Shown piece after piece: positions 35,625 to 50,833 of a DNA stretch of 64,000 bases. The stretch is from positions 434,001-498,000 of the forward strand of contig NZ_CP047159.1 in assembly GCF_019551475.1 (NCBI RefSeq), read 5' to 3'. The stretch's first letter is position 1, and each line of letters opens with the position of its first letter. The notes beneath the pieces were generated by a model. The model was not told the DNA's origin, did no database searches, and saw only the letters and a program-made list of their open reading frames with translations. The position numbers were made by a program, and so were the translations under genes. Origin of the DNA: Prevotella sp. Rep29. Its GTDB lineage: Bacteria; Bacteroidota; Bacteroidia; Bacteroidales; Bacteroidaceae.

Positions 35625-35647
35625 CCCCGCCTTTCGGCGGGTCTTTT
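35625..35647 (+). terminator. Terminator after the TPR-AraC regulator
   Basis: CCCGCC-TTTC-GGCGGG followed by TCTTTTG, 55 nt after the stop codon. Confidence 0.75.
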
Positions 35648-35745
35648 GTTTTGCTTATGCGATTGCTGATTTGTTATGGGGTGGGATAAAGCCAGTTTTA
35701 TTTTTGCTTATTTATTTCAACGGACTTGCTCATTCGTTTCTGCTA

Positions 35746-35776
35746 TTGTGTGCGCAGGGGATTTACAGTAACTTTG
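35746..35776 (+). promoter_or_regulatory. Promoter of the cargo operon
   Basis: TTG at 35746-35748 and the -7 box TAACTTTG at 35769-35776, 20 nt apart. The second regulator starts 22 nt later. I find no further TAnnTTTG box in the gaps between the genes from 35799 to 49627, so this may drive the whole 14 kb. Confidence 0.65.
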
Positions 35777-35798
35777 CACCTATAAAGATACATGCGAT

Positions 35799-36494
35799 AT
35801 GGAGCAAATGATTATCATCAACGTCGTTATCGTGGCAGTTTTAGTGACGGCTGTCATCGCTTATCTGGCCCTACGGCGGCAGAATGATGCCGTGCAGTAC
35901 GAGGTGAACCGGCTAACGCTTCGCCTCACGGAAATGGAAATGAAGATGGACGCCTTCCATGCCATCAATAACATTCCCGGCGGTGGTAGTGCTGCCGCTG
36001 ATGCCCAGGGGCTGACAGCTGTGAGCAAGGAAGAAAAGACTGCCAACGCGGACTTGTCGGAGATGGACGACAAGGAACTTTTTGAACATATCAGTCGAGT
36101 CATCCGTGACGAAGAACTGTTCCGCTGGCCCGATTTCAACCGCGCAGCCGTGAAGGAGCGGTTCTCTCTCTCGGCTGCGCGCATCGGCGGTGCCTTTATG
36201 CGGGGCGGCGGCATGGGCCTGCCCGAGTTTGTGCGCAACTGCCGTCTGGACTACGCCTGCCGCCTGATGGTGGAACAGCCTGAGTTGTCGTTTACCGAGG
36301 TGGGCGAGGCTTCAGGCTATCAGCGCACCACTACGTTCTACCATGACTTCAAGGCACGCTTCGGCATGCCCCCGGCTGAGTACAGGGCACAGCAGTTAAA
36401 ACAGGATGATGCAACTGCCATCCAGTCAGTACAGCCGCAGGGCGGAGAACCGAAGGAACAGCAGGAAATCACAGAATCAGAGAAGAATGACTGA
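35799..36494 (+). CDS. Membrane-anchored AraC-type regulator
   Basis: A 231-aa protein: a membrane helix at residues 4-26, a coiled coil to about 55, a low-complexity linker and then an AraC-type HTH around 120-205 (FTEVGEASGYQRTTTFYHDF). Its HTH is clearly a paralogue of that of the regulator at 34012, with shared NCRLDYACRLM- and FYHDFKAR-type stretches, but the exported sensor is absent. The two could work as partners, for example as heterodimers. Its stop overlaps the next ATG (TGATG), so it is coupled to the cargo operon. Confidence 0.72.
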   Translation: MEQMIIINVVIVAVLVTAVIAYLALRRQNDAVQYEVNRLTLRLTEMEMKMDAFHAINNIPGGGSAAADAQGLTAVSKEEKTANADLSEMDDKELFEHISRVIRDEELFRWPDFNRAAVKERFSLSAARIGGAFMRGGGMGLPEFVRNCRLDYACRLMVEQPELSFTEVGEASGYQRTTTFYHDFKARFGMPPAEYRAQQLKQDDATAIQSVQPQGGEPKEQQEITESEKND

Positions 36495-36658
36495 TGTACG
36501 GAAACAATAGTATTCTGGACCCTAATTTCATGCTGCTCTACGGCCTGACAATGATGCTTGCCTTAGAGACGGCAGTCTATCTGCTATGGCGGCGCGGCAA
36601 TGTGACATTCCCGTATGCTGCGGCTTCCCCGTGGGGGGCAACAGTTGCATTCCTATGA
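36494..36658 (+). CDS. Small single-helix membrane peptide
   Basis: 54 codons starting at an ATG that overlaps the stop of the regulator. One membrane helix is seen (LYGLTMMLALETAVYLLWRR). Translation coupling and codon use make it likely to be made, but it has no family that I know. Another frame, open to 36780, overlaps its second half, so a frameshift within one original gene is an alternative. Confidence 0.4.
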   Translation: MYGNNSILDPNFMLLYGLTMMLALETAVYLLWRRGNVTFPYAAASPWGATVAFL

Positions 36659-36780
36659 TGGTCGGTGCTCCCTGTGTGTTTGAGGTCAGCCCCGAGAAGT
36701 CTGTCCTGACATTCAATGTCGAGGGAGAGAGAAAGACATACTCCTTAGAAGGAGCAAGTGAGCAGTTATTCAAGAAGTAA
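36586..36780 (+). CDS. Small overlapping frame, possible frameshifted second half
   Basis: 64 codons in a different frame from the peptide at 36494. The second half (VFEVSPEKSVLTFNVEGER) is protein-like, acidic and ends 20 nt before the next gene. The first half, which overlaps the membrane peptide, is cysteine-rich and less convincing. It may be the C-terminal part of the upstream gene after a one-base change. Confidence 0.35.
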   Translation: MAARQCDIPVCCGFPVGGNSCIPMMVGAPCVFEVSPEKSVLTFNVEGERKTYSLEGASEQLFKK

Positions 36781-36800
36781 ATAATTTAAAAGTAAGAAAG

Positions 36801-37928
36801 ATGATGAGAAAAATCATGCAATGGATGGTGGCTGCCACCCTGACAAGCAGCCTCTTTGTATGGACATCCTGTTCGAACGATGACAATGCGGTGATTCCGC
36901 AGCCCGGCCATGAAACGGAGTTCGGCGCACTGCTGAAAACACTGGACTGGGGCACGGACACATGCCTCGTCTATGGTCACAAGACACCCGATGTGGATGC
37001 CGTCACCTCGGCCTTGTCGTATGCCAGGCTGATGCGGCTGATGGGCTACAACTGCAAGGCCAAGGTGTCGAGCGGGATGAACCGCGAGACAGCCTATATC
37101 GCCCACGTGTTCGGCTTCGCGCTGCCCGAACTGAAGTCGAGCGTGTTGCCGCAGACACGGCTCATCCTGACCGACCACACCGACTATGCCCAGTGCGTGG
37201 AGGGTGCCCGCGAAGCCGTTGTCCTGCAGAAGATAGACCACCATGTGGAGGGCGACATTGCAGACAGCGGCATCCCCTTTGTGCGCCGCGAGATGGTTGG
37301 CTCCACCAACACCATCATCTACGAGATGTATAAGGAACAGGGCATCACCATCGACGACGAGACCGCCCGCATCATGCTGGCAGGCATCATCAGCGACACG
37401 CGCAACCTGTCGAAAACCACCACGCAGGCCATCGACTCCACGGCATTGCAAGCTCTGACCGCACAGTTGGCCATCAGCCCCGACTCCGTGGCTCGTCTGA
37501 ACCGTGGCATGGAGGATGCAGCCACCGACTATACCGGCATGACCGATGCCGAGATTTTCCTCTCCGACTACAAGGAATACGAGATTGGCGGCCATCTGCT
37601 TGGCTTCGGCAGCCTCGTCTGCAAGCAGAGCCAGATGGAAGCCTTCATCGACCGCATGCTGGCAGTCATGCCCGAAGTGATGGGGCAGCGTGGGCGGCAG
37701 ATGCTCGTTGCCAAGATTGACAACATGGTGGAGAACACGGGCGATGACCGTGCCGAACGGCCTTACGTGGAGAATGGCACCTATTTTATATATTATGGTG
37801 AAGGTGCCAAGCAGGTGGCCGAGGGCGTCTTCGGTCCGTCATTGCGTGAGGGTGTCTGCTATACATCCGAGAAACTCTCACGCAAGCAGATAGTGCCGCG
37901 CATCACAGAAGTGCTGACTGGTAATTAA
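36801..37928 (+). CDS. Exported lipoprotein of the DHH family, manganese-dependent inorganic pyrophosphatase-like
   Basis: A 375-aa protein. An N-terminal lipoprotein signal (IMQWMVAATL..., lipobox WTSC, then SNDDN) is followed by a DHH phosphoesterase. The metal motifs of family II pyrophosphatase are kept: H60-K-T-P-D64-V-D66, a TDH motif near residue 122 and D146-H147-H148. The late SRKQIVP motif that binds the diphosphate is also present. Family II pyrophosphatases are cytoplasmic; an exported, lipid-anchored one is unusual. It might hydrolyse pyrophosphate or another small phosphoester at the surface. The leader is the first of the repeated series. Confidence 0.82.
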   Translation: MMRKIMQWMVAATLTSSLFVWTSCSNDDNAVIPQPGHETEFGALLKTLDWGTDTCLVYGHKTPDVDAVTSALSYARLMRLMGYNCKAKVSSGMNRETAYIAHVFGFALPELKSSVLPQTRLILTDHTDYAQCVEGAREAVVLQKIDHHVEGDIADSGIPFVRREMVGSTNTIIYEMYKEQGITIDDETARIMLAGIISDTRNLSKTTTQAIDSTALQALTAQLAISPDSVARLNRGMEDAATDYTGMTDAEIFLSDYKEYEIGGHLLGFGSLVCKQSQMEAFIDRMLAVMPEVMGQRGRQMLVAKIDNMVENTGDDRAERPYVENGTYFIYYGEGAKQVAEGVFGPSLREGVCYTSEKLSRKQIVPRITEVLTGN

Positions 37929-37959
37929 GATTAGTAATGTTTCATCAAACACAACGACG

Positions 37960-39507
37960 ATGAGAAAGTTACATGAATTAACATGGATGCTCGCCGCCAC
38001 CCTCGTTTGCGGCGCAAGTGTATTCATATCGTGTTCGTCGGACAGCGACGACAACCCAGTAATTAACCCCGACGAGCCGCAGCAGCAACTGGCCGACTAC
38101 ACCATCATCTTCTACGGTCACGGCGGCAGCAACCTCGACGCTTTCCTGATGGATAACATCGCCCAGTTCTTCAAATCCGACGCCGACCACCGGCGCAACG
38201 TGAGCATCTGCGCACAATACAAGTTCTCGACCCTCGAGAACTTGCAGAACAGCTACAGGGACTTGAAAACCGAAATCGACCCCAACGACCCGGCCCAGGT
38301 GGCCTTAGTCGAAAGGATTAAAGACTTCTACCCCTATGGCGGGAAGACCAGCCGCTTCACCGTCGACCCCACAGTCGCCGAGACCGACATGATGGCCACC
38401 ATCACCGCCCATTTCATTGGCCCCGACAATGCCGACATCTCGCGAACCGACTCGCTCACCCGCTTCATCGACTGGGCAGCGCGGGTGCGCCCCGCCCGCA
38501 GGTATATCCTCGTACTGTCCGACCACGGCGATGGCTATCTGCCCACCGAGGAAATCCCTGTCGCTGCTGCCGCCCCCAGCCAGACCCGCAGCGTCATCAA
38601 GGACGACGGCCACAACCGGGCCCACTTCACCGCCAAGAGCCTCACCGAGGCCATCCGGCAGGCCTCGGTGCACGTCAGCGCCGTCTATTGCGACGCCTGC
38701 CTGATGAACGCGGCAGAATATCAGTTCGAACTGGCCCCGGTGACCGACTACCTCGTGCTCTCCACCTTCCTCGTGCCTAGCGCGGGCGGCAACTACACTG
38801 AGCTGGTCGACGCCCTCTCGGACAACCCAGACGATCCCGAGCAGGCCCTGACGCGCTTCGCACGATTCTGCGTCGATGCCTGGGACAAGGATGCCGAAAA
38901 GGAAGACAAAGGCGAGGACGTGCCCCACTATCACGACATGAGCGTCTATCGCTCGGCCGAGGCCGACGCCTTCGGCGCTGAACTCAAGAAGTTCGTCGAC
39001 CGTCTGGTCGACGTCTATCAGAACGGCACCGACTACGCCCGGACCCGCATCGACTCGATCACCGCCAACGCCTATCGCGTCGACAACGAGCAGCCCACCT
39101 ACGACCTCATGAACTACATCATCGGCCTCACTGCCGCACTGCCCGACGACTTTGGGCCTTTGATTGAGGGTTTGGCAGACCAGGCCTACAACCACTACTT
39201 TGCCCTCCAGCAGTCGAGCAAGTGGCTCGAAGAGAACGGCCACACCGTCTCGCTCAGCGTGATGCTCGGCTGCCAGGGCCACTTCACCACCGTGGAGAAT
39301 GGCCTGCACTTCCGTTATGATGCCGACGGATTAGTCTATCTGTTTGCCGACGGTCAGCCGACCAGCGACGGTCTGCCATGGGGCTCCACCCTCGATGACA
39401 CCTACGGCCAGCTGCGCTTCGACCGGCTCACCGGCTGGAGCCGATGGCTGAAACTGAATAGACAGGAACCCAACACAAAATGTTACACCGAATATTACGA
39501 ATATTAA
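37960..39507 (+). CDS. Clostripain-family (C11) cysteine protease lipoprotein, first copy
   Basis: A 515-aa protein with the shared leader (lipobox FISC, then SSDSDDN). The clostripain fold starts at about residue 45 (YTIIFYGHGGSNLD). The catalytic dyad is His189 (in LSDHGDGY) and Cys247 (in DACLM). C11 enzymes cut after arginine or lysine and are made as zymogens in several gut bacteria. The acidic stretch after the lipid cysteine suggests surface display. It forms a tandem pair with the next gene, but the two are only distantly similar outside the motifs. Confidence 0.85.
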   Translation: MRKLHELTWMLAATLVCGASVFISCSSDSDDNPVINPDEPQQQLADYTIIFYGHGGSNLDAFLMDNIAQFFKSDADHRRNVSICAQYKFSTLENLQNSYRDLKTEIDPNDPAQVALVERIKDFYPYGGKTSRFTVDPTVAETDMMATITAHFIGPDNADISRTDSLTRFIDWAARVRPARRYILVLSDHGDGYLPTEEIPVAAAAPSQTRSVIKDDGHNRAHFTAKSLTEAIRQASVHVSAVYCDACLMNAAEYQFELAPVTDYLVLSTFLVPSAGGNYTELVDALSDNPDDPEQALTRFARFCVDAWDKDAEKEDKGEDVPHYHDMSVYRSAEADAFGAELKKFVDRLVDVYQNGTDYARTRIDSITANAYRVDNEQPTYDLMNYIIGLTAALPDDFGPLIEGLADQAYNHYFALQQSSKWLEENGHTVSLSVMLGCQGHFTTVENGLHFRYDADGLVYLFADGQPTSDGLPWGSTLDDTYGQLRFDRLTGWSRWLKLNRQEPNTKCYTEYYEY

Positions 39508-39577
39508 TGAACGGCTGCGATGACGTCAGCAGCAAGTGACGTAGAACCATTTAGGAATTTATATCAAATAAAGCATT

Positions 39578-41431
39578 ATGAAAAGAATCATGCAATGGGT
39601 GCTCGCCGCCACCCTCATCTGCGGCACAAGCGTATTCAACTCGTGTTCGTCGGACAACGACGACAACCCTTCTCCTGAATCAGGAGCGAACAGCGAACTT
39701 GTTGGCCAATGGTATTCCGACGTGTCGGGGGCTACTTATGCCGCCTGGACATACGGCAAGGCTTGGCAGCAGACGGAACTGAAGGACGACGGCACAGGAA
39801 CCACCAGCATCTATTACCTTAACAACGACGACGCCGTGGGCCGTGAGCGCTATTCGTTCACCTATACAGCCACGGACGGCGTGCTGACGATGGACATCGC
39901 GGAGAGGAACACCAAGACCACTGCCAGATATACCGTGAGTGACGGCAAGCTGACGATGATGGAGGGTGACCACCAATTGGCCATGCAGAAGATGGACGAC
40001 GCGAAGGCTAAGGACTTTGATGCGTGGAGCCGCAAGGACAACCTGGTCAATGTGCCGCAGCCCGCCCGCTACACCGTCTTAGTCTATGGCAATGCGGGAG
40101 GCACCATGGACGCAATTATTGAGTACGGCTTCTGGGAGAAGATACAGCCGCTGCTCAAGGACCACAACAACGTCCGCGTGGTCTGCTTCTACAAATATGG
40201 CAAGAAACCGACTGATGAGAAAAATTCCTATCCAGGTAAGTATGCCGACCCGGGCGACATCGTGTGGTTCGATCTGAACGACACGACCAACCTGGAGAAT
40301 ATTCGTAACGGAGGACTTCAGGCATATGGGTATGAAAAGGAGGCCAAGGCCATGAAACTGTGCGACCCCAAGACCGTCAGCGCGTTCATCCAGATCAGCA
40401 GTCTGGTGTGTCCTGCCGAGCAGTATGTGTTCAGCATCTGGGGGCATGGCAACGGACTGGCCCCAATGAACGATGTCCCTGGCAAATACGAAGACCCCGC
40501 CGCTGCATCTGCCACCCGAGGGGTCATTGCCGATGAGTGGAATGAGAGTGAGGAACTTGATATGTATGAGCTGAGTGCCGCCATCCGTTCCGCAGGCCTG
40601 AACCGGCTGAACACGATTTTCTTCCACAACTGCCTGATGGGCAACATGGAGACGCTGACCGAACTGCGCGGCCTGTCTGACTACATCGTGGCGTCGGCAC
40701 ACATACTCTCAAGTGGAGGCGAACTGCTCACGGAATACGTCCGCGGACTGCTGGAGAAGGGGAATACCGAGGATGCCGTTGCACAGATGTTTGAGCGAGT
40801 AAACCCTGTGTGGGAAAATTCATATCATGAGTCTGAAGAGCAGGAAAATGGGCAAATAGTGGAGTCCTGGAAAAATGGCGACTACAAACTCATCCGCACC
40901 GCCAAGCTCGATGCCATCATCGATGCCGCCAAGCGCCTCGCCGACAGACTCGTCGCTCTCTACCCCACGCAGAAAGAGGCCATCGACAGAGCCACCAAGG
41001 AGGTGTATCGGTTCAACACCTTGATTAATAATAAACAGTCCCCCGATGAGAGTATCGGAAACTCCTACGTGACTCCCTTTTTCGATTTGGCTGACTATGC
41101 CCATTTGTTGACAAAGGAGACTGGCGACGCAGAAATGGCTGCCATCTCCAGTGATTTGGACAAAGCCTTCAGCGAGGCCTTCGTACATTATGCCGACGTC
41201 AGCACGAACGAACAGCATCTGGACCACTACACGCTGAGCGTCTGCCTGACCAACAACGATATCTACACGACAAATTTCATCGGATTTTATCCTAATGCCC
41301 TGTGCAATTACGACCAAGGCTACGAGCAGACCACATTCCACAAACTGACGGGATGGGGCAACTGGCTGCGCACCAACCAGCAACTGCTTTGGGGCAATCC
41401 CACAAGCGACGGCGGTGGTCCGCTCAAGTGA
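39578..41431 (+). CDS. Clostripain-family (C11) cysteine protease lipoprotein, second copy
   Basis: A 617-aa protein with the shared leader (lipobox FNSC, then SSDNDDN). An extra beta-rich N-terminal domain of about 110 residues (WYSDVSGATYAAWTYGKAW...) resembles the lipocalin-like domains of Bacteroidales lipoproteins. The protease domain starts near residue 165. The catalytic dyad is His290 (WGHGNG) and Cys352 (FHNCLMG). Likely a surface protease working with the one upstream. The 70-nt gap before it shows no promoter box. Confidence 0.85.
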   Translation: MKRIMQWVLAATLICGTSVFNSCSSDNDDNPSPESGANSELVGQWYSDVSGATYAAWTYGKAWQQTELKDDGTGTTSIYYLNNDDAVGRERYSFTYTATDGVLTMDIAERNTKTTARYTVSDGKLTMMEGDHQLAMQKMDDAKAKDFDAWSRKDNLVNVPQPARYTVLVYGNAGGTMDAIIEYGFWEKIQPLLKDHNNVRVVCFYKYGKKPTDEKNSYPGKYADPGDIVWFDLNDTTNLENIRNGGLQAYGYEKEAKAMKLCDPKTVSAFIQISSLVCPAEQYVFSIWGHGNGLAPMNDVPGKYEDPAAASATRGVIADEWNESEELDMYELSAAIRSAGLNRLNTIFFHNCLMGNMETLTELRGLSDYIVASAHILSSGGELLTEYVRGLLEKGNTEDAVAQMFERVNPVWENSYHESEEQENGQIVESWKNGDYKLIRTAKLDAIIDAAKRLADRLVALYPTQKEAIDRATKEVYRFNTLINNKQSPDESIGNSYVTPFFDLADYAHLLTKETGDAEMAAISSDLDKAFSEAFVHYADVSTNEQHLDHYTLSVCLTNNDIYTTNFIGFYPNALCNYDQGYEQTTFHKLTGWGNWLRTNQQLLWGNPTSDGGGPLK

Positions 41432-41461
41432 ATAAAGAACAAGTATTAAATTCTCAAAAAT

Positions 41462-41623
41462 ATGAATCAAAGGAAACTGTGGGTGCTCGCCGCCATCCTG
41501 ACATGCGGCCTGATGAGCGCAAACGCCCTCGTGATGACCCACGCCTACTCCAACGCCATCATCGACAAGGTGGAGGAAGCCCTGAAGAACGGTATCGTTG
41601 GCAACGATGATGAGGACTGGTGA
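41462..41623 (+). CDS. 53-aa peptide consisting almost only of the shared leader
   Basis: MNQRKLWVLAAILTCGLMSA is nearly the same as the start of the lipoproteins around it. The mature part would be only about 30 residues, with an acidic end (NDDEDW). The cysteine is earlier than in the others, and a cleavage site after SANA is plausible, so it may be secreted rather than lipidated. It ends 1 nt before the DUF3667 gene. It is either a small secreted peptide or a spare leader cassette. Confidence 0.55.
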   Translation: MNQRKLWVLAAILTCGLMSANALVMTHAYSNAIIDKVEEALKNGIVGNDDEDW

Positions 41624-41624
41624 T

Positions 41625-42434
41625 ATGAGGATGAATCTGAGAGAGCGGTATCGGTGTTTCAAAGCGTGGCAGGAGCACCCGTTTGACTACGCGAACCACA
41701 GCGAGCACACCACCAGATGTGCCAACTGCGGTACGGAGTTCCGTGACAACTTCTGTTCCCGCTGCGGCCAGAAAGCCGGGGTGGGGCCTATAGGGTGGAA
41801 CACGGTGCGGCAGGGCATCATGATACTCTGGGGCATGGACAACCGCTCGCTCAGTTTCACGCTGGTTCAACTGGCATTGCGGCCCGGCTACCTGATACAC
41901 GACTATATCAGCGGCAAGCGGCAGGTGGCGTTCCCACCCGTGAAGATGCTGTTCATCGTAGCCCTCGCCAACGCGCTGGCCACCCGACTGCACGAGAAAC
42001 TCTATGGCAGCGTAGCAGAGGCACAGACCTTTGAGGGGGAGTTGGCCTTCCTGAACCAGTTTATGACCTGGGCGAAGGACAATACGGCCTGGAGCACGCT
42101 GCTCTACATGGCAGTATTTATCCTCCCCACGTGGATGTTCTTCCGCCGTGCCCCCCGCTACCCCCGGCACAACCTGCCCGAAGGGTTCTTCATTCAGGTG
42201 TTCATGGCCAGCCTCAACCTGCTGATAGACACGGTTGCCCAGTTGACGGTCATACGGGCCAGCGTCCTGTTACCCATCTATTTCATCGTGACCTACAGGC
42301 AACTCTTCGGCTACGGGTGGTGGGGCACCATCTGGCGGCTTCTCTTCTGTGCCGCTATCGGTTTCGGGCTAATCATCATAGCTGCTATGGCCTCGGTGGT
42401 CTGGTTCAATGCAGAGGAGATTTTCAGTTCTTAA
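41625..42434 (+). CDS. DUF3667 membrane protein with zinc ribbon
   Basis: A 269-aa protein. The N-terminal zinc ribbon has two pairs of cysteines (CANCGTEFRDNFCSRCGQK, residues about 28-47), followed by about four membrane helices. This is the DUF3667 layout; function is unknown. It is the only non-exported enzyme-like neighbour in the cargo besides the DUF4421 barrel, and could help folding, sorting or immunity for the others (guess). I chose the ATG at 41625, right after the stop of the leader peptide. Confidence 0.7.
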   Translation: MRMNLRERYRCFKAWQEHPFDYANHSEHTTRCANCGTEFRDNFCSRCGQKAGVGPIGWNTVRQGIMILWGMDNRSLSFTLVQLALRPGYLIHDYISGKRQVAFPPVKMLFIVALANALATRLHEKLYGSVAEAQTFEGELAFLNQFMTWAKDNTAWSTLLYMAVFILPTWMFFRRAPRYPRHNLPEGFFIQVFMASLNLLIDTVAQLTVIRASVLLPIYFIVTYRQLFGYGWWGTIWRLLFCAAIGFGLIIIAAMASVVWFNAEEIFSS

Positions 42435-42470
42435 CAATCATGTCTCACCTTTCAAAGTCCAGTATCAGTT

Positions 42471-43733
42471 ATGACATTCTATTCTAAACACCATTCCCTG
42501 TCTATCCCGAAAGGTTCGAACAGAACCCGCCGGAAGGCTTTGCTCGCGGTATGTATGCTGCTGTGCATACAGCCGGCGGCCACTGCCCAGGAAACCGCCG
42601 ACAGCGTGGAAGCGGACGGGAAGATGCCAGGGGTCATCAAGCAGGTGCTCGACAGGCTTAACCGCCCCCCACGCTACCTCGACGACCGCTATGTGCGAAA
42701 GCCGCCGACCAAGTTCATTGTCACCCTGAGGGGCAGAGTGCAGCAGACCGGTGTGCGCATCAACGACTATTCGGAGTTGGATACCGACTGGGGGCTTGCC
42801 AACAGCACACAGACCGACTTGCGTATGCAAGAGCGCCTCCATTACAAGATAGGAGGCTATATCACCTATTCAGGCATCCGTGCCGGACTGAGCATGAGCG
42901 TAGGGCGCAAGAGTGCCGAGAAGAGCACCTCCTTGTACCTCGGCTGCATCAACTCATACTACGGGCTTACAGCCCAATATAACAATATCAAGGAGAAGGT
43001 GTCATCTGACGTACATTCCACAGTGGACTATCATGGTGAGAACTACGAAAACGACTCCATGGAGGGCGACACTTACATGGAGTCGGACTATCCTGCCGAC
43101 ATGCGCGAGATACAATTCGACGGCTACTATGCCTTCAACCGCCGCCGCTTCGCCTATACCGCTGTATATGGCGGCAGTGTCGTGCAGCGACGTTCTGCCG
43201 GCTCGTGGATGCTGGGAATGAAGTACCTCTATGGGCGGGTGAAGTTCGACTCCAGGGAATCCAGTTTCCTCACCCACGTCGGCGGCATCACACGGTTTAC
43301 CACCCAACAGTTGTCCGTAGGCGGAGGCTACAGTTACAACCTCGTACTCCTGAACCGTGACGAAAACGGTCCACTCCTGCACGGTCTTCGCAACCTCACT
43401 TTCAACGCCACCTTCATGCCGATGGTCACCATGTTCAATCCGCTCACCATCTATTACGACAAAAACCTCGTGGAATGGTTCGGCTATGAGACCGACCACC
43501 GCACACGCAAGTCACATCCGGAACTCAACTACACTGCCACGACGGGCATGGCGCTGAGCATCGACCGCTTCAGTTTCGTCGTCAAAGTCCACTACGACAA
43601 CTTCCGCTTCAACACAGGCTTACAGGATGAGAACCTGAACAAACTGGGCGATGAGTATGCCATGCAGAAAAACCGCATGAAAGGGCGCTTCTTCAACTGG
43701 GGCGTGAGGGCAGATTTTCAAATGAAGTTTTAA
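42471..43733 (+). CDS. DUF4421 outer-membrane protein
   Basis: A 420-aa protein with a cleavable signal peptide (cleavage probably after ATAQ, about residue 40) and a body of alternating aromatic strands ending in F, as in an outer-membrane barrel. The stretch RPPRYLDDRYVRKPPTKF and later repeats match DUF4421, a Bacteroidetes family of unknown role. It has its own signal type, not the shared leader. It could be the outer-membrane partner of the surface enzymes. Confidence 0.7.
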   Translation: MTFYSKHHSLSIPKGSNRTRRKALLAVCMLLCIQPAATAQETADSVEADGKMPGVIKQVLDRLNRPPRYLDDRYVRKPPTKFIVTLRGRVQQTGVRINDYSELDTDWGLANSTQTDLRMQERLHYKIGGYITYSGIRAGLSMSVGRKSAEKSTSLYLGCINSYYGLTAQYNNIKEKVSSDVHSTVDYHGENYENDSMEGDTYMESDYPADMREIQFDGYYAFNRRRFAYTAVYGGSVVQRRSAGSWMLGMKYLYGRVKFDSRESSFLTHVGGITRFTTQQLSVGGGYSYNLVLLNRDENGPLLHGLRNLTFNATFMPMVTMFNPLTIYYDKNLVEWFGYETDHRTRKSHPELNYTATTGMALSIDRFSFVVKVHYDNFRFNTGLQDENLNKLGDEYAMQKNRMKGRFFNWGVRADFQMKF

Positions 43734-43754
43734 CCAATGTAATAAAAAAGAAGT

Positions 43755-45836
43755 ATGAAAAAAATCATGCAATGGGTACTCGCCGCCATCCTCATCAGCG
43801 GCGCAAGTGTATTCACATCGTGTGTTGACAATTCAACAGACAACCCGGTAGTGCCAGAGCCTGGAGTGCCCGCCGTGCCAGACCACTTCATCAACGAGGC
43901 ATTGATGGACAAGACCGTCAAGCCCGGCGACGACTTCTACATGTATGCCCTGGGCACCTGGTTCAATTCACATAAAGAGGGCGACCTGGGTTACATGAAG
44001 TCTTACAATGCAATAAACACCAAAGAGGTTGAAAAGAGCCTGTTTGCCTCCGACAACCCCCTGGCCCAGCACCTCGTGCGGAATATTGAGGCTCCTGCGC
44101 CATCATTGAATGAAGACGTGAAGGCCATACTCGACTATCTGGACATCCAGAAGCCGACGGGAATCGGCATGCTGCTGACCGAAATCGGCAAACTGCAGGA
44201 CAAGGGGCTGAATCCCATATTCTCGAAAAGAGTGGATTTGCATATGCAATCCCACTCCTGCCAGGAAATAGTGAGCAGAGGCATCCAGACACAATTGGTA
44301 GAAGCTTTGCTGGGAACTAAAATGACAGACTTGCTGAAATCATCGTACATCAAGAGCATACTGACGACCATCGACAACGTGGCAGACCCGGAGCGCACGA
44401 AGGCGGCAGGCTATGAGACGGAACTCGAGGAGCGCGTCAGCGCGATTCTCGCCGAGGAGCAATTGATTTATGCGACAGCCCATGGTGGCGGCGATACCTC
44501 CGACTCAGACCGTCAGAGCTTGTGGAACGTGCGCGACATACCTGACTACACCGAGGCCGGCAGCATCGCGCGGGGCCGTGCCACACGTGCCGGGGGCGGC
44601 GTCGAAGACGAAGTCACCCGGGAGACGCTGTGGGAAGCATTCCATCCGATGGCTGGTGCAATCTTCGACGAATCCCCCGCCTTCAAGAAATACATGGAAC
44701 AGAAAGGCGGCATCACGACCGTGCTGAAGACGATGGACAACTGCTACGACTACCTGAGATACTATGCCGTTATGAGCGTATTCAGCTACATGAAGGCTAC
44801 TTATGCCGGTAAAAGCGAAGGAGCCGTCAAGAGTGAAATCGTAGCGGAATTGAAACGGACAAGCCCCTTCCTGATGAACAAGTTGAGTGCGGACGTACTA
44901 CGGAAGATGGGGCAAGCCGGGGCAGACCGCTGCCTGACGATGCTGGAGAAAATGCGCACCGTGTTCCGACAGCGCATCGAAACGCTCGACTGGCTGAGCG
45001 ACGCCACGCGCCAGGAGGCACTGAAGAAACTGGAGGCCATGCAGTTCTTTGTCGGCATGCCCGACAACCTTAGCGAAGGCGAGTTCACCCTCGACGAGGG
45101 GAACACGCTGGTCGAGGACGCCCTGTCCATCATGGCGCAGAATGAAGCCATCAAGCATAACATGTGCGGAAAAGTTGAGCAGCATGTCCGCGCCATCATC
45201 GACTATGAAACCGATTATAGCGCACAGAACGCCTTTTATGCTCCCGATATGAACTGTCTGATCATCTTGCCGCAATTCTTATGTGAAGGTATGTTCCCTG
45301 CCGATGATGAATACACCCAGTACGTTGTCGCTACAGTCTTCGCCCACGAGATGACCCACGGCTTCGATGACAATGGGGCAAAGTATGACAAACAGGGATA
45401 CCTGACAGACTGGTGGTCATCAGAATCCAAAGCGAAGTTCGAAGCCAAGCAGCAGGAGATGATTGCGCTCTACAACCGTATGGAGGCCTACCCCGGACAG
45501 CCGGCCGATGGCAAAAAGACGCTGGGGGAGAACATGGCCGACTACGGCGGCATGACGCTGGCCTACTCACTCTTCAAGCAGAAGAAAATAGATGAGGGGC
45601 TGCAGGGGGCTGCCCTCGACTATGCCTGCCAGGAGTTCTTCCTGCACTATGCAAAACTGTGGCTGGATTATCCTACCCTTGACCTAAAGAAGTCGTTGTA
45701 CCTGACTGACGTCCATTCAATCCCCCAAAACCGCGTCAATGTCATCGTGACACTCTTCGACGACTGGTACAGACTCTTCAACGTGACTGACGGGAAACTC
45801 TATCTCGCACCAGAGAAGCGCGTGCAGATCTGGTGA
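43755..45836 (+). CDS. M13-family (neprilysin-like) metallopeptidase lipoprotein
   Basis: A 693-aa protein with the shared leader (IMQWVLAAIL, lipobox FTSC). The zinc site is complete: His531-Glu532-x-x-His535 (HEMTHGFDD), Glu592 in ENMADYGG, and the substrate-binding NAFYAP before it. M13 enzymes cut short peptides, so it could finish what the clostripains begin. Its length is usual for the family. An ~80-residue insertion with GGGDTSDSDRQS is present around 235-300. The gap after the DUF4421 gene is only 21 nt. Confidence 0.9.
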   Translation: MKKIMQWVLAAILISGASVFTSCVDNSTDNPVVPEPGVPAVPDHFINEALMDKTVKPGDDFYMYALGTWFNSHKEGDLGYMKSYNAINTKEVEKSLFASDNPLAQHLVRNIEAPAPSLNEDVKAILDYLDIQKPTGIGMLLTEIGKLQDKGLNPIFSKRVDLHMQSHSCQEIVSRGIQTQLVEALLGTKMTDLLKSSYIKSILTTIDNVADPERTKAAGYETELEERVSAILAEEQLIYATAHGGGDTSDSDRQSLWNVRDIPDYTEAGSIARGRATRAGGGVEDEVTRETLWEAFHPMAGAIFDESPAFKKYMEQKGGITTVLKTMDNCYDYLRYYAVMSVFSYMKATYAGKSEGAVKSEIVAELKRTSPFLMNKLSADVLRKMGQAGADRCLTMLEKMRTVFRQRIETLDWLSDATRQEALKKLEAMQFFVGMPDNLSEGEFTLDEGNTLVEDALSIMAQNEAIKHNMCGKVEQHVRAIIDYETDYSAQNAFYAPDMNCLIILPQFLCEGMFPADDEYTQYVVATVFAHEMTHGFDDNGAKYDKQGYLTDWWSSESKAKFEAKQQEMIALYNRMEAYPGQPADGKKTLGENMADYGGMTLAYSLFKQKKIDEGLQGAALDYACQEFFLHYAKLWLDYPTLDLKKSLYLTDVHSIPQNRVNVIVTLFDDWYRLFNVTDGKLYLAPEKRVQIW

Positions 45837-45899
45837 TATATATCAATAATGTGTAGATAACAAAGGAACAAACAAAAATTCAAAATAACATAATCAAAT

Positions 45900-45995
45900 A
45901 TGAAACAAAGGAAACTGTGGATGCTCGCCGCCATCCTCATCTGCGGCACAAGTGTATTCACATCGTGTTCGTCGGACAACGACGACAATCCTGTC
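45900..45995 (+). repeat. Reference copy of the repeated lipoprotein-leader cassette
   Basis: The first ~95 nt of this gene recur, with few changes, at the starts of the genes at 37960, 39578, 43755, 47888 and, less closely, 36801, 41462 and 47097. The segment CTCGCCGCCATCCTCATCTG is shared almost exactly, with third codon positions kept. Downstream of about codon 32 the genes have no relation to each other. This points to spread of one leader by recombination, not to convergence on a signal peptide. Confidence 0.75.
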
Positions 45996-47093
45996 GCGCC
46001 GACAGACGAGGTGGAGGCGCAACTGCAGAAGATGACGCTGCGCGAGAAGGTGGGGCAACTGTTCTATGTGCGCCCCGAGTGTCTCGACACCACCATCCAC
46101 TTCAACCAGCCCAGCAGCGTCGACGGCAGTACGGACGACATCAGGGCCATCAAGTTGCAGGCCGTCAACGAGACCATGCGCGGCGTGAACGAGAAATACC
46201 CCGTGGGAGGCGTCATCCTCTATGCCCACAACATCGAGGACGAGGCACAACTCACGGCTTTCATCGCCCAGATACGCGCCCTTGGCGGCTCGCCGCTGCT
46301 CTGCATCGACGAGGAGGGAGGCCGCGTGGCACGCATCGCCAACAACGGGAACTTCGCAGTGGAGAAGTTTGAGTCGATGGCGGCCATCGGTGCCACGGGC
46401 GATGCGCAGAATGCCTACCACTGCGGCAACACCATCGGCACCTATCTGCGTCGCTACGGCTTCGACATCGACTTCGCCCCCGTGGCCGACGTGAACACCA
46501 ACCCTGAGAACATCGTCATCGGCGCCCGTGCCTTCAGCGACAATCCCGAGGTGGCCGCGCCGATGGTCGTCAGCTATCTGCAGGGGCTGAAGGATGCCGG
46601 CGTGACGGGCTGCATCAAGCATTTCCCCGGACACGGCGACACCAAGGCCGACACGCACTTCGGCTATGCGCAGAGCATGAAGACTTGGGAGCAGATGAAG
46701 GACTGCGAGATGATCACCTTCAAGGCAGGTATTGCGTGGGGTACACAGCTGATTATGACAGCCCATATCGCTACGCCCAACGTCACTGGTTCGGACATCC
46801 CCGCCACCATGTCGTCCGTCATCCTGCAGGACAAGCTGCGCGGCGAACTCGGTTACCAGAATATCATCATCACCGATGCGATGGAGATGGGAGCCATCAC
46901 CAAGCAGTACACCAATGCCGAGGCCGCTGTAGGTACGCTTCAGGCCGGTGCCGACATCGTGCTGGGACCGCAGAACTTCGTGGAAGCCTTCGATGCCGTG
47001 GTCAAGGCCGTAGAGGTCGGCAGGCTCAGCGAACAGCGCATTGACCAGAGTGTGCGCCGCGTATTGAAACTGAAAAAGCAAATAGGAAGATAA
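45900..47093 (+). CDS. Glycoside hydrolase family 3 lipoprotein, beta-N-acetylhexosaminidase-like
   Basis: A 397-aa protein with the shared leader (lipobox FTSC, then SSDNDDN) and one GH3 N-terminal barrel. The NagZ-type motif KHFPGHGDT (His241, His245) and the nucleophile region ITDAMEMGAI (Asp326) are present. Single-domain GH3 enzymes of this kind remove N-acetylglucosamine from peptidoglycan fragments, usually in the cytoplasm; this one is exported. It is followed after 3 nt by the VanX-like gene, which would act on the peptide part. Confidence 0.85.
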   Translation: MKQRKLWMLAAILICGTSVFTSCSSDNDDNPVAPTDEVEAQLQKMTLREKVGQLFYVRPECLDTTIHFNQPSSVDGSTDDIRAIKLQAVNETMRGVNEKYPVGGVILYAHNIEDEAQLTAFIAQIRALGGSPLLCIDEEGGRVARIANNGNFAVEKFESMAAIGATGDAQNAYHCGNTIGTYLRRYGFDIDFAPVADVNTNPENIVIGARAFSDNPEVAAPMVVSYLQGLKDAGVTGCIKHFPGHGDTKADTHFGYAQSMKTWEQMKDCEMITFKAGIAWGTQLIMTAHIATPNVTGSDIPATMSSVILQDKLRGELGYQNIIITDAMEMGAITKQYTNAEAAVGTLQAGADIVLGPQNFVEAFDAVVKAVEVGRLSEQRIDQSVRRVLKLKKQIGR

Positions 47094-47096
47094 CAG

Positions 47097-47891
47097 ATGA
47101 GACAGGTAAAATTATGGATGCTCGCCGCCATCCTGACTATCTGCGGCATGACGATGGTGTCCTGCTTCTCGGACACGAAGAAGAGTGCGGCAGTCAGCGC
47201 GACTGACGATGCCAGCCAGTTTGTAACTATCACAGACGTGGTGCCCGATGTGATTCTGGAGATCCGTTACTTCGGCACGTATAACTTTGTGGGAACGCGC
47301 ATCGACGGCTATGATGAGCCGACGGCACTTTTGACTAAGCAGGCTGCTGACAGTTTGAAAGCCGTGAGCGACGACGTCAAGGCGCAGGGCTATCGCCTGA
47401 AAATCTACGATGCCTACCGTCCGCAGAAGGGTGTTGACCACTTCGTGCGCTGGGCCGAGGACATCAACGACACACTGATGAAGCCCTACTTCTATCCCGA
47501 CCTTGACAAGAGCGTGCTCTTTCCACAGGACTACATCTGTCTGAAGAGCGGTCATACGCGTGGCTCTACTCTCGACCTGACACTTTTCGATATGGCAACG
47601 GAGAAAGAGGTGGACATGGGCGGCACCTTCGACTGGTTCGGTCCCGAGAGCCATCCCGACTTCTGCGGTAATCCTGAAACGGGCGAATACACAGGAGACA
47701 ACAGCAAAAGTCCTGCTAACCCGAAACGTAGCATCACCCCCGAGCAGTTCAAGAACCGCATGATCCTGCGTCAAGCGATGCTGCGCCATGGCTTCAAGCC
47801 TTTCGATACGGAGTGGTGGCACTTCACGCTGAAGGACGAGCCCTTCCCCGACACCTATTTCACATTCCCAGTTAAGCAACTGAACAAATGA
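47097..47891 (+). CDS. VanX-like D-Ala-D-Ala dipeptidase (M15D) lipoprotein
   Basis: A 264-aa protein with a diverged shared leader (KLWMLAAILTICG, lipobox MVSC, then FSDTKKS without the acidic run). Zinc ligands of VanX are in place: His153 and Asp160 in SGHTRGSTLDLTL, then Glu239 and His242 in EWWHF. It would split D-Ala-D-Ala or similar dipeptides. The lack of an acidic export signal suggests the periplasmic side. It overlaps the next gene by 4 nt. Confidence 0.87.
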   Translation: MRQVKLWMLAAILTICGMTMVSCFSDTKKSAAVSATDDASQFVTITDVVPDVILEIRYFGTYNFVGTRIDGYDEPTALLTKQAADSLKAVSDDVKAQGYRLKIYDAYRPQKGVDHFVRWAEDINDTLMKPYFYPDLDKSVLFPQDYICLKSGHTRGSTLDLTLFDMATEKEVDMGGTFDWFGPESHPDFCGNPETGEYTGDNSKSPANPKRSITPEQFKNRMILRQAMLRHGFKPFDTEWWHFTLKDEPFPDTYFTFPVKQLNK

Positions 47892-49627
47892 AGTTAAAGA
47901 AACTATGGATGCTCGCCGCCATCCTCATTTGCGGCACAAGTGGGTTTACTTCGTGCGGAAACGACGATGATGCCGCCATTGTTACTCCGGCGGCGAAGGA
48001 ATACTTCACGCAGTGGAATCAGTGCGAGGCGCTGACCGCCTTGCAGAACTACGTGAAGGACGTGACCGATGTCAACTCACCCAATTATATCCAGGAGGAA
48101 GACCGCATCGCCACGTTCGACATGGACGGTACGTTTGTGGGCGAACTCTATCCCTCGTACTTTGAGTATAATCTGTTGGAGTACCGCGCGCTGGACGACC
48201 CCGACTACGAGGCTCCGAAGGACGTGATGGAGACGGCACAGGAGATACGCGACTTCGTGCGCAACGGCAAGCCGCTGCCCGACCACTTCGACATGAAGCA
48301 TGCCTACGCCGCTGCCAAGGCCTACGCCGGCATGACACTGGCCGAGTTTGATGCCTACGTGAAGGCATACGCTGCCCAGCCCGCCAACGGTTTTTCGGGC
48401 ATGACCTACGGCGAGAGTTTCTACAAGCCGATGCTCGAAGTCTTCGACTACCTGAAGAACAACGGCTTTACCTGCTACGTGGTCTCGGGCAGCGACCGCT
48501 TCATCTGCCGCGCGCTAACGGAGGCCATCGGCATCCCCTCCAACCGCGTCATCGGAATGGACGTCAGGCTCGTGTCCTCCGCCCAGGGTACGGCAGAGGG
48601 CGTCAACTACACGATGGGCCGTGAGGAGAGCATCCTGCGCACCGACGAACTCATCATCAAGAACCTGAAGACCAACAAGGTAAAACAGATAGCCCAGGAG
48701 ATTGGCAAGGTGCCTGTGCTCTCCTTCGGCAACAGCGGCGGCGACGCAGCCATGCACAACTATGCGCTCAGCAACCCGAAGTATAAGTCGGCAGCCTTCA
48801 TGCTCATTGCCGATGACGACCAGCGTGACCATGCCTCGCGCGAAAAGGCCCTCACGCTGGGACAGCAGTGGCGCGAGGCCGGGTATCATGTCATCTCCAT
48901 GCGCGATGACTTCAAGACCATCTACGGCGAGGGTGTCACGAAGACCGACTTTTCCTTTCCCGTCGACATAAAACCCCTCACCGAGTGGCAGGCTGGTCGA
49001 ACCGTGAGTCAGGAGGCCGTCGAAGCCTTTGGCGGCATTGACAATTGCTTCGCCGCCGACCCTATCCCCGATGGTGTGTGGCAGCGTATGCAGGGCAAGA
49101 CGTACAAGGAGAATCCCTACATCGGACGTGACGACCTGCGTCACATCCGCGCCCTGCACTGGGACTACGACAACCAGATGCACGTCGGCGAGATGATAGT
49201 GAACAAGCAGATTGCTGACCGCGTAGCCACCATCCTGCGCCAGTTGTTCGATGCCAAGTACCCCATCCAGCGGATGTTGCTGCCCGACGTGTATGATGCA
49301 GATGATGAGACCCAAATGCGCGACAACAACTCATCGTGCTTCTGCTACCGTGTCATCGCGGGCAGCACCAAGCTGTCGAAACATGCCCGGGGGCTGGCCA
49401 TCGACATCAACACCCTCTACAATCCCTATTACAAGGATCGCAACGACGGCACGCGCTTCATCCAGCCCGCCACGGCTGAGAAATACTGCGACCGCACGTG
49501 GGACTTCCCCTACAAGATAGACCACGACGACCTCTGCTTCCGCCTATTTACTGAGGCCGGCTTTGAATGGGGCGGCGACTGGACATCGTGCAAGGACTTC
49601 CAGCATTTTGAGTTAATAGAAGAATAA
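47888..49627 (+). CDS. HAD-family phosphatase fused to an M15 peptidase, lipoprotein
   Basis: A 579-aa protein with the shared leader (lipobox FTSC, then GNDDDA). The HAD domain covers residues about 60-330: Asp78-x-Asp80 (FDMDGTF), VVSGSDRF and GNSGGDAAM. The M15 peptidase domain covers about 400-579: His499 and Asp506 in SKHARGLAIDIN and His573 in DFQHFEL. The first would remove phosphate from small molecules; the second would cut peptidoglycan peptides. I know of no described enzyme with this pairing. It is the last intact gene of the operon. Confidence 0.85.
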   Translation: MKLKKLWMLAAILICGTSGFTSCGNDDDAAIVTPAAKEYFTQWNQCEALTALQNYVKDVTDVNSPNYIQEEDRIATFDMDGTFVGELYPSYFEYNLLEYRALDDPDYEAPKDVMETAQEIRDFVRNGKPLPDHFDMKHAYAAAKAYAGMTLAEFDAYVKAYAAQPANGFSGMTYGESFYKPMLEVFDYLKNNGFTCYVVSGSDRFICRALTEAIGIPSNRVIGMDVRLVSSAQGTAEGVNYTMGREESILRTDELIIKNLKTNKVKQIAQEIGKVPVLSFGNSGGDAAMHNYALSNPKYKSAAFMLIADDDQRDHASREKALTLGQQWREAGYHVISMRDDFKTIYGEGVTKTDFSFPVDIKPLTEWQAGRTVSQEAVEAFGGIDNCFAADPIPDGVWQRMQGKTYKENPYIGRDDLRHIRALHWDYDNQMHVGEMIVNKQIADRVATILRQLFDAKYPIQRMLLPDVYDADDETQMRDNNSSCFCYRVIAGSTKLSKHARGLAIDINTLYNPYYKDRNDGTRFIQPATAEKYCDRTWDFPYKIDHDDLCFRLFTEAGFEWGGDWTSCKDFQHFELIEE

Positions 49628-49636: not shown

Positions 49637-49915
49637 ATGAACTATAACAAAGGGGAAAAGCTGCTTTCTGAAAGATTCTACTTGACTTGGGCTGGAGAGC
49701 AGATGTCCTGGACAGTCAGAATGACACTGAAGATGAGGGATCCTGTTGACGGCGATTTATTGCGTCAGGCAGTAGAATCAACGCGCCAGCGTTATCCATA
49801 TTATCAAGTGAAACTCGGCATTAGAAAAGATACTGAAGGCACGGAATATTTCGTGTACGAAGACAAGGAATACTTCGACTCTTCGGTTGCCTTTGAGTCC
49901 TTCTTCGTAGAATAG
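49637..49915 (+). pseudogene. Truncated acyltransferase (condensation/AATase-like) N-terminus
   Basis: FYLTWAGEQMSWTVRMTLKM and LLRQAVESTRQRYPYYQVKL are the start of a Bacteroidetes acyltransferase-like protein normally about 400 aa or more. The reading frame leaves the family near residue 77 (around 49865), where it runs antisense through the end of the DUF2589 gene. Only 92 codons remain. It would have been the final gene of the cargo operon, so the operon has lost its end here. Confidence 0.6.
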
Positions 49916-50343
49916 TTGGCCTTCAGATTTGCCTCCAGAGAGAACAGACCAAGATTGAGTTTTGCCTTCGCATCCACTTCGCCACCATACTCGGTGTGCG
50001 AGGAGTTCTCGCTGACACTTGACGAAGAGGCGTTGATGTTGGCCTTGAAGTTGATGTCAACGCTGTTGATTGCGATGTAGGGGATAGGTACGATGGTGAG
50101 CAGAGGTACATTGAGTTGGGTCATGCGGCCTCCCTTGTTGAAGGAGAAAGCCACCATGACGGCACTCTTCTGTCCTTTCTCGTCAGTGTTCAGTCCCACT
50201 TCCTTGATAAACTCCCATGATGTCTTGGCTGCCATAGCCTGTGCCTCGATGCACGCCTTCAGCGGGCCGCCAATCATACTGCTGAAAGGAATTGCCTGCA
50301 TGGCACTGGTTGCCACATTTGCAGGAACATTACTTATTGCCAT
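49804..50343 (-). CDS. DUF2589 protein, truncated at its C-terminus
   Basis: A 179-aa protein beginning like DUF2589 members, with IGGPLKACIEAQAMAAKTSW, NVPLLTIVPIPYIAINSVDINF and an acidic linker. Such proteins normally end with a QDDMPAGL-type motif; here the frame instead runs, from about residue 160, into the antisense of the broken acyltransferase and ends in VSFLMPSFT. So both genes were cut at one junction. Function of the family is unknown; some lie near secreted or contractile systems. A -7 box at 50531 gives a ~180-nt leader. Confidence 0.6.
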   Translation of the reverse strand: MAISNVPANVATSAMQAIPFSSMIGGPLKACIEAQAMAAKTSWEFIKEVGLNTDEKGQKSAVMVAFSFNKGGRMTQLNVPLLTIVPIPYIAINSVDINFKANINASSSSVSENSSHTEYGGEVDAKAKLNLGLFSLEANLKANYSTKKDSKATEESKYSLSSYTKYSVPSVSFLMPSFT

Positions 50344-50530
50344 AAAAGTTTTTTTGTTTTTTTTAAATTGTTATGCTTACTCTGTTTCAAGGTTTAGGAG
50401 TCCTAGCCACAATGCCATACCGACGCGTCTTAATATAATGGTATGCGTGAGGTCATTGTCCTTCATCCGACGGCTTTTCAGCTTCTGCCGTTTGCAATCT
50501 TACAGTTGCACCCCTTTTCGGAAATGCACG

Positions 50531-50539
50531 GCAAAAGTA
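50531..50539 (-). promoter_or_regulatory. -7 box for the DUF2589 gene
   Basis: Minus-strand TACTTTTGC fits TAnnTTTG. The leader to the ATG at 50343 would be about 180 nt, long for this organism. No gene is seen in 50344-50612. Confidence 0.5.
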
Positions 50540-50612
50540 AGCAGAATTTGGCAATGGCGAAGAATGGTTTACATGAGTGCCGGGTGTGGTTACATGAAGG
50601 GGATAGGATGCA

Positions 50613-50833
50613 TGTCGCAGGTTGTCGCACCTGTCGCCATCATCAGAACCAGTGATTAATAGGGAGCAAGAGATGTTGTATCAATCATATCTACCCATAA
50701 TTACAGCTACAATAGAGCTACAGAACGATATGTCTGGGCTTATAGTGCGACAGCATGCGAGGGCGATGCTACAAGCGGTACGGTTGCTAAGTGCCTGTAA
50801 ATCAGTTGTGCGCAAGTTGCGACAAGTGCGACA
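50613..50833. repeat. TGTCGC iteron-like clusters next to the primase gene
   Basis: Three TGTCGC units in direct order at 50613, 50623 and 50632 (10- and 9-nt spacing). Three more in inverse order (GCGACA) lie at 50747, 50819 and 50828, the last two again 9 nt apart. They lie just past the 3' end of the primase-helicase gene. This arrangement suggests binding sites for a replication or partition protein, that is, a possible replication origin or ParB-type site. Confidence 0.45.

Follow-up and report, generated by a model that had tools for sequence, protein, structure and literature searches.

Why should a run of bacterial genes for unrelated exported enzymes all begin with the same piece of DNA? 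The question is raised by a stretch of 64,000 nucleotides (nt) of Prevotella sp. Rep29 (assembly GCF_019551475.1, contig NZ_CP047159.1, positions 434,001 to 498,000 of the forward strand), called the window below, with coordinates counted from its first letter. Eight genes between 36801 and 49627 share a leader of about 30 codons, and behind it stand bodies of the DHH, peptidase C11 (two genes, C11a and C11b), M13, GH3, M15 (VanX-like) and HAD–M15_4 types. Our comparisons, all made on sequence data, make it likely that the leader is at once an export signal, a predicted RNA pseudoknot and a recombination joint for surface enzymes.

The leader is shared as DNA

A repeat search of the window returned a single direct-repeat family of eight copies in the same orientation, beginning where the original prediction had placed them. 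The window's genome is one 2.73-Mb contig with ten leader copies, eight in the window and two outside it. At identical degenerate residues of the first 28 codons (344 residue pairs), the eight leaders showed a synonymous-codon identity of 0.721, compared with 0.329 expected from genome codon usage, 0.336 from the usage of lipoprotein-like N-termini and 0.481 from pooled usage of the leaders themselves; under each of the three nulls, 2000 simulations never reached the observed value. The second null and the control set were taken from 28 lipoprotein-like genes, picked by a simple motif (some are doubtful) from 400 kb of the window's genome plus the window. These controls do not carry the leader, and their synonymous-codon identity among themselves was 0.389.

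Nucleotide identity between the leaders, with the pair of the second and third genes excluded (and the fourth gene left out of the profile anchored on the Cys codon), was 0.90 over the 15 nt that start at the Trp codon. It dropped to 0.25–0.27 at 46 nt and more before Trp, and had fallen to about 0.28 at 45 nt beyond the Cys codon. These values bear out the original prediction that the eight genes share the leader as DNA, synonymous sites included, and that the similarity ends where the bodies begin. The synonymous conservation is patchy: Ala3 is encoded by GCC in 90 of 94 cases, Ala4 by GCC in 78 of 85 and Ile5 by ATC in 74 of 78, Leu2 by CTC in just 38 of 75, and the codons of both Leu2 and Leu6 vary among leaders.

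Leaders are exchanged between bodies

Orthologues with bodies at least 95% identical have leaders of 0.88 nucleotide identity, and at 85–90% body identity the value is 0.68, near the 0.63–0.66 found between leaders of unrelated genes (124 leader open reading frames, ORFs). The window GH3 leader, for instance, is closer to the C11a leader (0.87) than to the leader of the GH3 gene of locus L075 (0.67), although the GH3 proteins are 93% identical. Close orthologues of VanX (95%), DHH (91%), cupin (92%) and GH3 (96%) were found with another signal peptide and no detected leader, and a close orthologue of the carboxylesterase (COesterase; 79–82% over 98 amino acids) has no signal peptide; some of the rows scored as leaderless may be diverged leaders.

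The order of genes changes at the leader. C11a is at least 98% identical in five genomes (the window's and four others, in one of which it is only partial), and the next gene is C11b in three of them, M13 in one and GH3 in one. Behind C11a, 14 of 28 loci were examined and a leader gene came next in 6; behind GH3, all 30 were examined and a leader gene came next in 7. The 5' flank of the third gene, C11b in the window, carries GH3 in locus L173 and M13 in L211. L173 comes from genome G290 (99% complete, two contigs) and is made of three segments. The first is 98–99% identical to the window and to G023 until mid-leader (6809). The second (6734–7998) is 95% identical to the stretch from GH3 to the next leader in the P. 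lacticifex-type locus L176 (G219), and the third (7980–9911) is C11b again, 87–92.5% identical to the window, G023 and L195. The segments overlap by 76 and 19 nt, each time inside one of the two leaders. Locus L211 (G284) matches window positions 37161–39646 (98.4%) and then 43744–45147 (96.3%), with an 80-nt overlap at the leader. This arrangement is formally equivalent to what recombination between window leaders three and five would give, the stretch from C11b to DUF4421 having been either lost or, alternatively, not yet inserted.

In each of six flank groups, two to four non-homologous bodies share one 5' flank. As the flank groups include the same contig from two collections, pairs were counted after removal of exact duplicates: the same flank stood before different bodies in 33 of 106 leader-gene pairs and in 0 of 37 control pairs drawn from 1159 non-leader genes (Fisher p 1.8e-5; the pairs are not independent). 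In the window, the stop codon of the seventh gene overlaps the start codon of the eighth (ATGA, 47888–47891). Since the same seventh-gene flank carries GH3 rather than HAD in L072, the stop/start overlap is retained across the joint.

Two-parent mosaic fits were obtained for 27 rows, 15 of them with a match of at least 0.93, several rows repeating one joint. The best crossover intervals in these 15 rows were nt 13–21, 19–24, 22–40, 23–51, 28–34, 35, 36–42, 46–60 and 50–93, plus one upstream of the ATG. Crossovers upstream of the ATG were placed in L225_6341 (−68 to −18, match 0.96) and L033_702 (−41 to −22, match 0.92), two lower-quality fits fell at nt 97 and 111, and no close parent matched the 3' side in the trios of L147_739 and L073_11197. 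As the intervals are scattered, there is no single recombination site. Within the sequences compared, these results establish recombination within the leader, its shared DNA ancestry, non-homologous bodies behind one flank and the absence of the leader from close orthologues. The original prediction had a leader cassette copied onto new coding sequences; the recombination stands, with explicit joints at the leader, and the direction does not. At the resolved joints the upstream flank stays with the preceding gene and the body changes, so the leader is better described as a joint between exchangeable bodies than as a cassette placed before each of them.

The fourth gene of the window (41462–41623, +) is a 53-codon ORF in which the leader is joined to the final 34 codons of a 244-amino-acid, non-lipoprotein leader gene. 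It has no lipobox, and a relative of that longer gene is present elsewhere in the same genome (91% amino acid identity over 34). The parent gene, seen in L170 at about 909–1640, has a relative at about 1.838–1.839 Mb of C1, behind a leaderless VanX paralogue. At L249 1619 (−), a leader is out of frame with a DUF3089-like body. Both the 53-codon ORF and the out-of-frame leader look like failed joints. In the P. lacticifex-type locus L176, a VanX–GH3–cupin–HAD block is present in two copies, and the two cupin bodies are near-identical yet differ in their 5' leader halves.

A predicted pseudoknot lies in the leader codons

The conserved codons of the leader can pair in two 5-bp helices. Helix S1 joins GGATG (Trp-Met) with CATCC (Ala-Ile-Leu), and helix S2 joins GCCGC (Ala-Ala) with GCGGC (Cys-Gly). 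The order of the arms matches an H-type pseudoknot, and the loop lengths are compatible with this fold: 3 nt (Leu2) in loop 1, none in loop 2, and 6, 9 or 12 nt in loop 3 (98, 70 and 15 of 184 leaders). The element typically occupies nt 20–48 of the gene, and the Trp codon stands at nt 19 in 157 of the 184. The near-invariant Ala-Ala-Ile and Cys-Gly codons are in the stems, and the variable codons (Leu2, Leu6 and inserted ones) are in the loops.

For the analysis of the arms, 42 of 286 leader genes without the motif were dropped and 184 distinct leaders were kept from the remaining 244. S2 can form in 166 of these, S1 in 153 and both in 139. The number of paired cells was not reached in 1000 shuffles for either helix, nor was the Watson–Crick count in 2000 shuffles of a set thinned to 116 rows, one for each combination of family and arm type. 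Two gapless alignments, A4 and A5, were made from 150 of 165 chosen segments, those with a loop 3 of 6 or 9 nt. Cells with a double change numbered 23 against 9.8 in shuffles (87 rows) and 18 against 3.2 (63 rows), and such changes occurred in 4 and 5 of the 10 pairs, respectively. Three of the five S2 pairs had double changes in each alignment, in counts that leave relatedness in. In S1, one pair had 19 (87 rows) and 2 (63 rows) double changes and another had 1.

Compensations in S2 are spread across lineages, being found in GH3 (L200, L104, the L088 clade and L093), in DHH in two forms and in L191/L202. Both DHH forms are fully paired, as GCCAC/GTGGC in P. lacticifex-type rows and GCTGC/GCAGC in window-type rows. 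A change of Ala4 to Thr is accompanied by TGC to TGT in 15 of the 17 rows with Thr (compared with 6 of the 161 with Ala), a change of Ala3 to Thr by GGC to GGT in 6 of 9 (16 of 162), and GCT by AGC in 4 of 9 (3 of 172). With Ala at position 3, the Gly codon is GGT, which gives a wobble pair, 16 times and GGA, which gives a mismatch, twice, against a genome usage of 0.32 for GGA and 0.25 for GGT. Nucleic-acid pairing in the leader is therefore well supported by the alignments, for S2 better than for S1, and much of the nucleotide identity of the leader looks like the result of selection on RNA structure, a role that was absent from the original prediction. The two helices would presumably form together and act in the messenger RNA (mRNA).

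In the window, the element of the sixth gene (45919–45947; S1 45919–45923/45932–45936, S2 45927–45931/45943–45947) is canonical, as are those of the seventh (47116–47147, with a loop 3 of 9 nt) and the eighth (47907–47935). The third (39597–39625) pairs GGGTG/CACCC in S1 and GCCGC/GCGGC in S2, and the fourth copy is at 41481–41509. One A·C mismatch breaks S1 in the first (36823–36851, nt 20–48 from the start at 36804, with S2 GCTGC/GCAGC), the second (37985–38013, nt 26–54) and the fifth (43774–43802). All eight are on the forward strand. An Rfam scan of 36500–48200 gave no match to the leaders; its sole hit (E 0.46) was below the gathering score, outside the leaders and at chance level. Programmed frameshifting at the pseudoknot was considered and set aside, as the codons upstream of it contain no conserved slippery heptamer in alignment A3.

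Distribution of the leader and attached bodies

Of 398 genomes sampled from the genus, with the window's genome counted in, 189 gave a BLAST match to the leader. A profile search at E 0.01 was run on 20 chosen high-quality genomes, the majority picked for an earlier BLAST match. It gave 2–13 matches in 17 of them and none in G010, G016 and G024, which are 99% complete in 1–3 contigs. Among 246 other genomes of the order, five had one or two matches; both helices are intact in one of these (L308), and those of the other outside genomes are partly broken or wobble-paired.

From 200 loci, 286 leader genes were collected (293 profile hits, 7 of them without a recognised start), or 246 after removal of exact duplicates, and their bodies fell into 41 homology groups. 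The sample is biased, as loci L031–L070 and further loci were fetched for leader DNA resembling that of the window or the model. The groups are homology components computed with the leader removed, and since the two largest chain several domains through fusion proteins, the figure of 41 does not count Pfam families. Further bodies include amidohydrolase, cupin, DUF3089, carboxylesterase, L,D-transpeptidase, histidine phosphatase, thioredoxin-like and CarboxypepD-regulatory proteins and a fusion of ABC permease, binding protein and ATPase; nucleoside hydrolase and outer-membrane barrel bodies matched under the Pfam cut-off. Domains have also recombined among the bodies, giving HAD–M15_4, C11–M15_4, DUF3089–carboxylesterase and M15_4 by itself. 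The ABC fusion is a 934-amino-acid ORF of the window's own genome (L070, 3886–6687) that joins the leader to an amino-acid ABC permease, solute-binding domains and an ATPase, and a leader gene resembling it was seen in another family (L311).

Of 238 leader genes, 222 carry a lipobox-like Cys. When the 184 usable leaders were screened with a simple motif, 16 came out without one (L203 possibly a false call); S2 can form in 15 of these and S1 in 11. The description of the leader as a lipoprotein leader thus fits most copies and fails for these 16. As they mostly keep S2, the common element seems to be the nucleotide core rather than the lipoprotein signal.

The array and its surroundings

The eight genes, all on the forward strand, were assigned from their ORFs and Pfam matches, with NCBIfam matches for the first and for the fifth to eighth. 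The first (36801–37928) encodes a DHH/DHHA2 lipoprotein resembling Mn-pyrophosphatases; two ATGs stand at 36801 and the leader proper begins at 36804. C11a (37960–39507) and C11b (39578–41431) follow and belong to the same Pfam family. Behind the 53-codon ORF come the M13 peptidase (PepO-like, 43755–45836), the GH3 enzyme (beta-N-acetylhexosaminidase-like, 45900–47093), the M15 enzyme (VanX-like D-Ala-D-Ala dipeptidase, 47097–47891) and a protein with a HAD-like phosphatase and an M15_4 carboxypeptidase domain (47888–49627), whose HAD-like match of 26.6 bits is slightly below the Pfam cut-off of 27. Leaderless genes for DUF3667 (41625) and DUF4421 (42471) stand within the run. The enzyme domains had been described as unrelated, and six kinds are indeed present; the two C11 bodies are homologous, so that the array holds seven enzymes of six kinds, and the gene at 41462 is a fusion ORF.

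By sequence, a lipobox Cys for signal peptidase II is present in seven of the eight copies. The acidic motif behind it (SSDNDDN, SSDSDDN, SNDDN or GNDDD) occurs in the first, second, third, sixth and eighth genes, is partial in the fifth (VDNSTDN) and is weak in the seventh (FSDTKK). The set of enzymes (VanX, M15_4, YkuD, GH3 hexosaminidase and peptidases) hints at scavenging of peptidoglycan or peptides at the surface.

Two AraC-type genes lie upstream of the array (33967–36494), the first of which begins like a lipoprotein, continues through a long central region and ends in the AraC domain. On the 3' side (49804–60010) are a DUF2589 gene, a DnaG-like primase, ParA, Schlafen-AlbA_2 and a tyrosine-integrase match below the Pfam cut-off, which are probably a neighbouring mobile element. 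The window also contains a 2504-amino-acid ORF at 8380–15894 (−).

Proposed role of the leader and alternative explanations

We propose that the leader module is inherited and exchanged as DNA and would act at two further levels. In the protein it is a signal peptide, mostly of lipoprotein type and with an acidic motif for surface export behind the Cys; in the mRNA it would form an H-type pseudoknot of two 5-bp helices at about nt 20–48. The footprint of an initiating ribosome would end just before this element, and its place just beyond the ribosome's edge points to control of early translation or of mRNA stability, which could then apply to a common set of surface proteins. The RNA structure and the reading frame together would constrain the nucleotides, so that all leader copies stay alike. 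Homologous recombination, presumably of the ordinary RecA type, could then create, in frame, hybrid leaders whose 5' half comes from one copy and whose 3' half comes from another, and bodies could be moved, inserted, deleted and duplicated within arrays and between genomes while remaining exportable.

Several results weigh against the RNA and joint roles. S1 cannot form in 31 of 184 rows; it is broken in 7 of 7 DHH rows and, by one A·C each, in three of the eight window copies, and S2 is broken in 18 of 184. In A3, the first and less tidy alignment, the numbers of double-change pairs and pair types in S1 did not exceed those of shuffles, 488 of 500 of which reached them, although the cell count and the covariation score did. 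The shuffle tests leave relatedness in, and the two arms can be co-transferred by recombination. When the arms were slid by −3 columns, the covariation was 0.161 against 0.216 in one alignment and 0.120 against 0.109 in the other, where a slide of +2 scored 0.104; the −3 slide paired 56.5–57.7% of cells, compared with 97.5% in the true register. The GCC fraction of the GH3 leader (0.93) is high yet within the range of conserved Ala codons of the mature protein (top 0.95, mean 0.62). Single-strand folding, by a program that does not model pseudoknots, clearly beat shuffles in one of the eight window leaders (z −3.35; the rest −1.82 to +0.47). The leaders were also collected through their DNA similarity, a route biased towards canonical copies, and part of the joints are poorly resolved or lie outside the leader.

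A more far-reaching possibility is that the pseudoknot in the signal-peptide codons defines a genus-wide regulon of exported proteins, sensing a protein or ligand and setting early translation; such an element would have to stay alike in sequence and so would serve also as a universal in-frame joint for the reassortment of Prevotella surface enzymes, with export signal, RNA switch and recombination joint united in one stretch of DNA. We hold this only tentatively. The alternative that fares best is recombination alone, in which the leader would be a short repeat homogenised by gene conversion without an RNA function. The joints are real, and the low identity of orthologue leaders at 85–90% body identity, close to that of unrelated genes, speaks for it. 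It leaves unexplained why synonymous conservation is so uneven between codons such as Ala3 and Leu2, and why compensatory pairs recur across families, several of them through synonymous changes, and we regard it as unlikely.

Less plausible still is that the leader acts as a double-stranded DNA operator or a small-RNA target instead of through mRNA structure. Inverted repeats can be half-sites for DNA-binding proteins, and scattered copies could make up a regulon. The 11-nt core, however, has 11 exact hits in the window's genome, nine in leaders and two in long ORFs, and the search, limited to exact copies, found no antisense core outside coding regions. Wobble pairs are also tolerated better than mismatches; this is what RNA pairing would lead one to expect, but codon structure is a confounder in the comparison.

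We consider it very improbable that leader hairpins are single-stranded DNA targets of site-specific recombination or transposition of an IS200/IS605- or integron-like kind. There are inverted repeats in the leader and joints fall there, one report links IS605 stem loops to lipoprotein genes in Borrelia (PMC2775950), and Y1_Tnp matches occur in the leader-bearing genomes G219 and G293. Yet the best crossovers range from positions before the ATG to nt 93 (nt 111 in poorer fits) and have no point in common, and the eight window copies share one orientation. Moreover, Y1_Tnp has no match in G000 (the window's genome) and G290, which both carry leader arrays, and it does match in two genomes that gave no leader hit, G010 and G016. 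Finally, an ordinary lineage-specific signal peptide, inherited with each gene under selection on the protein, would account for the hydrophobic core, the lipobox, the acidic motif and the shared leaders of bodies at least 95% identical, but is already contradicted by a codon identity far above the protein-only null, by unrelated bodies behind the same flank and by near-identical bodies with differing signal peptides.

If the leader is the threefold module proposed here, it would offer gut and rumen Bacteroidota a concrete route, at the level of sequence, to place new enzymes on their surface, because a body recombined at the leader would remain in frame, translated and exported. A regulatory action of the RNA, if shown, would make this a categorically new reading.

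Comparison with known systems

Our searches of open-licence articles in PubMed Central (PMC) returned no description of the leader or its RNA element, and an RNA element within a signal-peptide coding region, common to dozens of unrelated genes, is apparently undescribed. Related systems are nevertheless known. Bacteroides shufflons and phase-variable surface loci likewise diversify surface proteins by recombination, and they use invertases and inverted sites; in Prevotella the repeats are direct and genes are inserted and deleted, and the scanned genes (33967–49627) included no invertase. Integron gene cassettes combine unrelated coding sequences in arrays, with short repeats between them as joints. 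The leader arrays do so too, but here the joint is inside the coding sequence and its position varies. A scan of the genes of the run, which did not extend to attC sites, found no integrase, and the only integrase-like gene seen, at 58442, is about 9 kb away and below the Pfam cut-off.

The predicted RNA element resembles H-type pseudoknot regulators of early translation such as the preQ1-I riboswitch, which has two short helices near the start codon; a short loop 1, a variable loop 3 and closeness to the start are common to both. It differs in lying inside the coding region, in frame, and in its leaders having no Rfam match (36500–48200). Structured repeats conserved at the RNA level beside lipoprotein genes are described for the IS605 stem loops of Borrelia in the report cited above (PMC2775950). 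As described there, these are transposon-derived and stand at 3' ends, unlike the Prevotella element within the signal-peptide codons.

At the protein level, the leaders can be compared with the lipoprotein export signal (LES) of Bacteroidetes, an acidic motif directly after the +1 Cys, with the consensus SDDDD in B. fragilis according to its description (PMC5080379). The SSDNDDN of the Prevotella leaders compares well with this consensus, and by sequence most of the leader proteins of the window qualify as LES-type lipoproteins with a predicted surface location. The LES is, however, a protein motif that implies no shared DNA or codons, and 16 of 184 leaders lack a lipobox by the simple motif test.

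A close parallel is the terminal reassortment of type III effectors, in which, as Stavrinides, Ma and Guttman reportedly described in 2006, an N-terminus with the export signal is found together with its upstream DNA on varied C-terminal bodies. The Prevotella leader and its upstream DNA were likewise found on non-homologous bodies. No type III effector family was among the scanned bodies, which are mostly enzymes behind Sec-type leaders. The differences are the Sec/lipoprotein leaders, the arrays of enzymes, the joints inside a repeated leader and the conserved predicted RNA structure. Reassortment at the Prevotella leader works like the terminal reassortment of effectors, in another secretion route.

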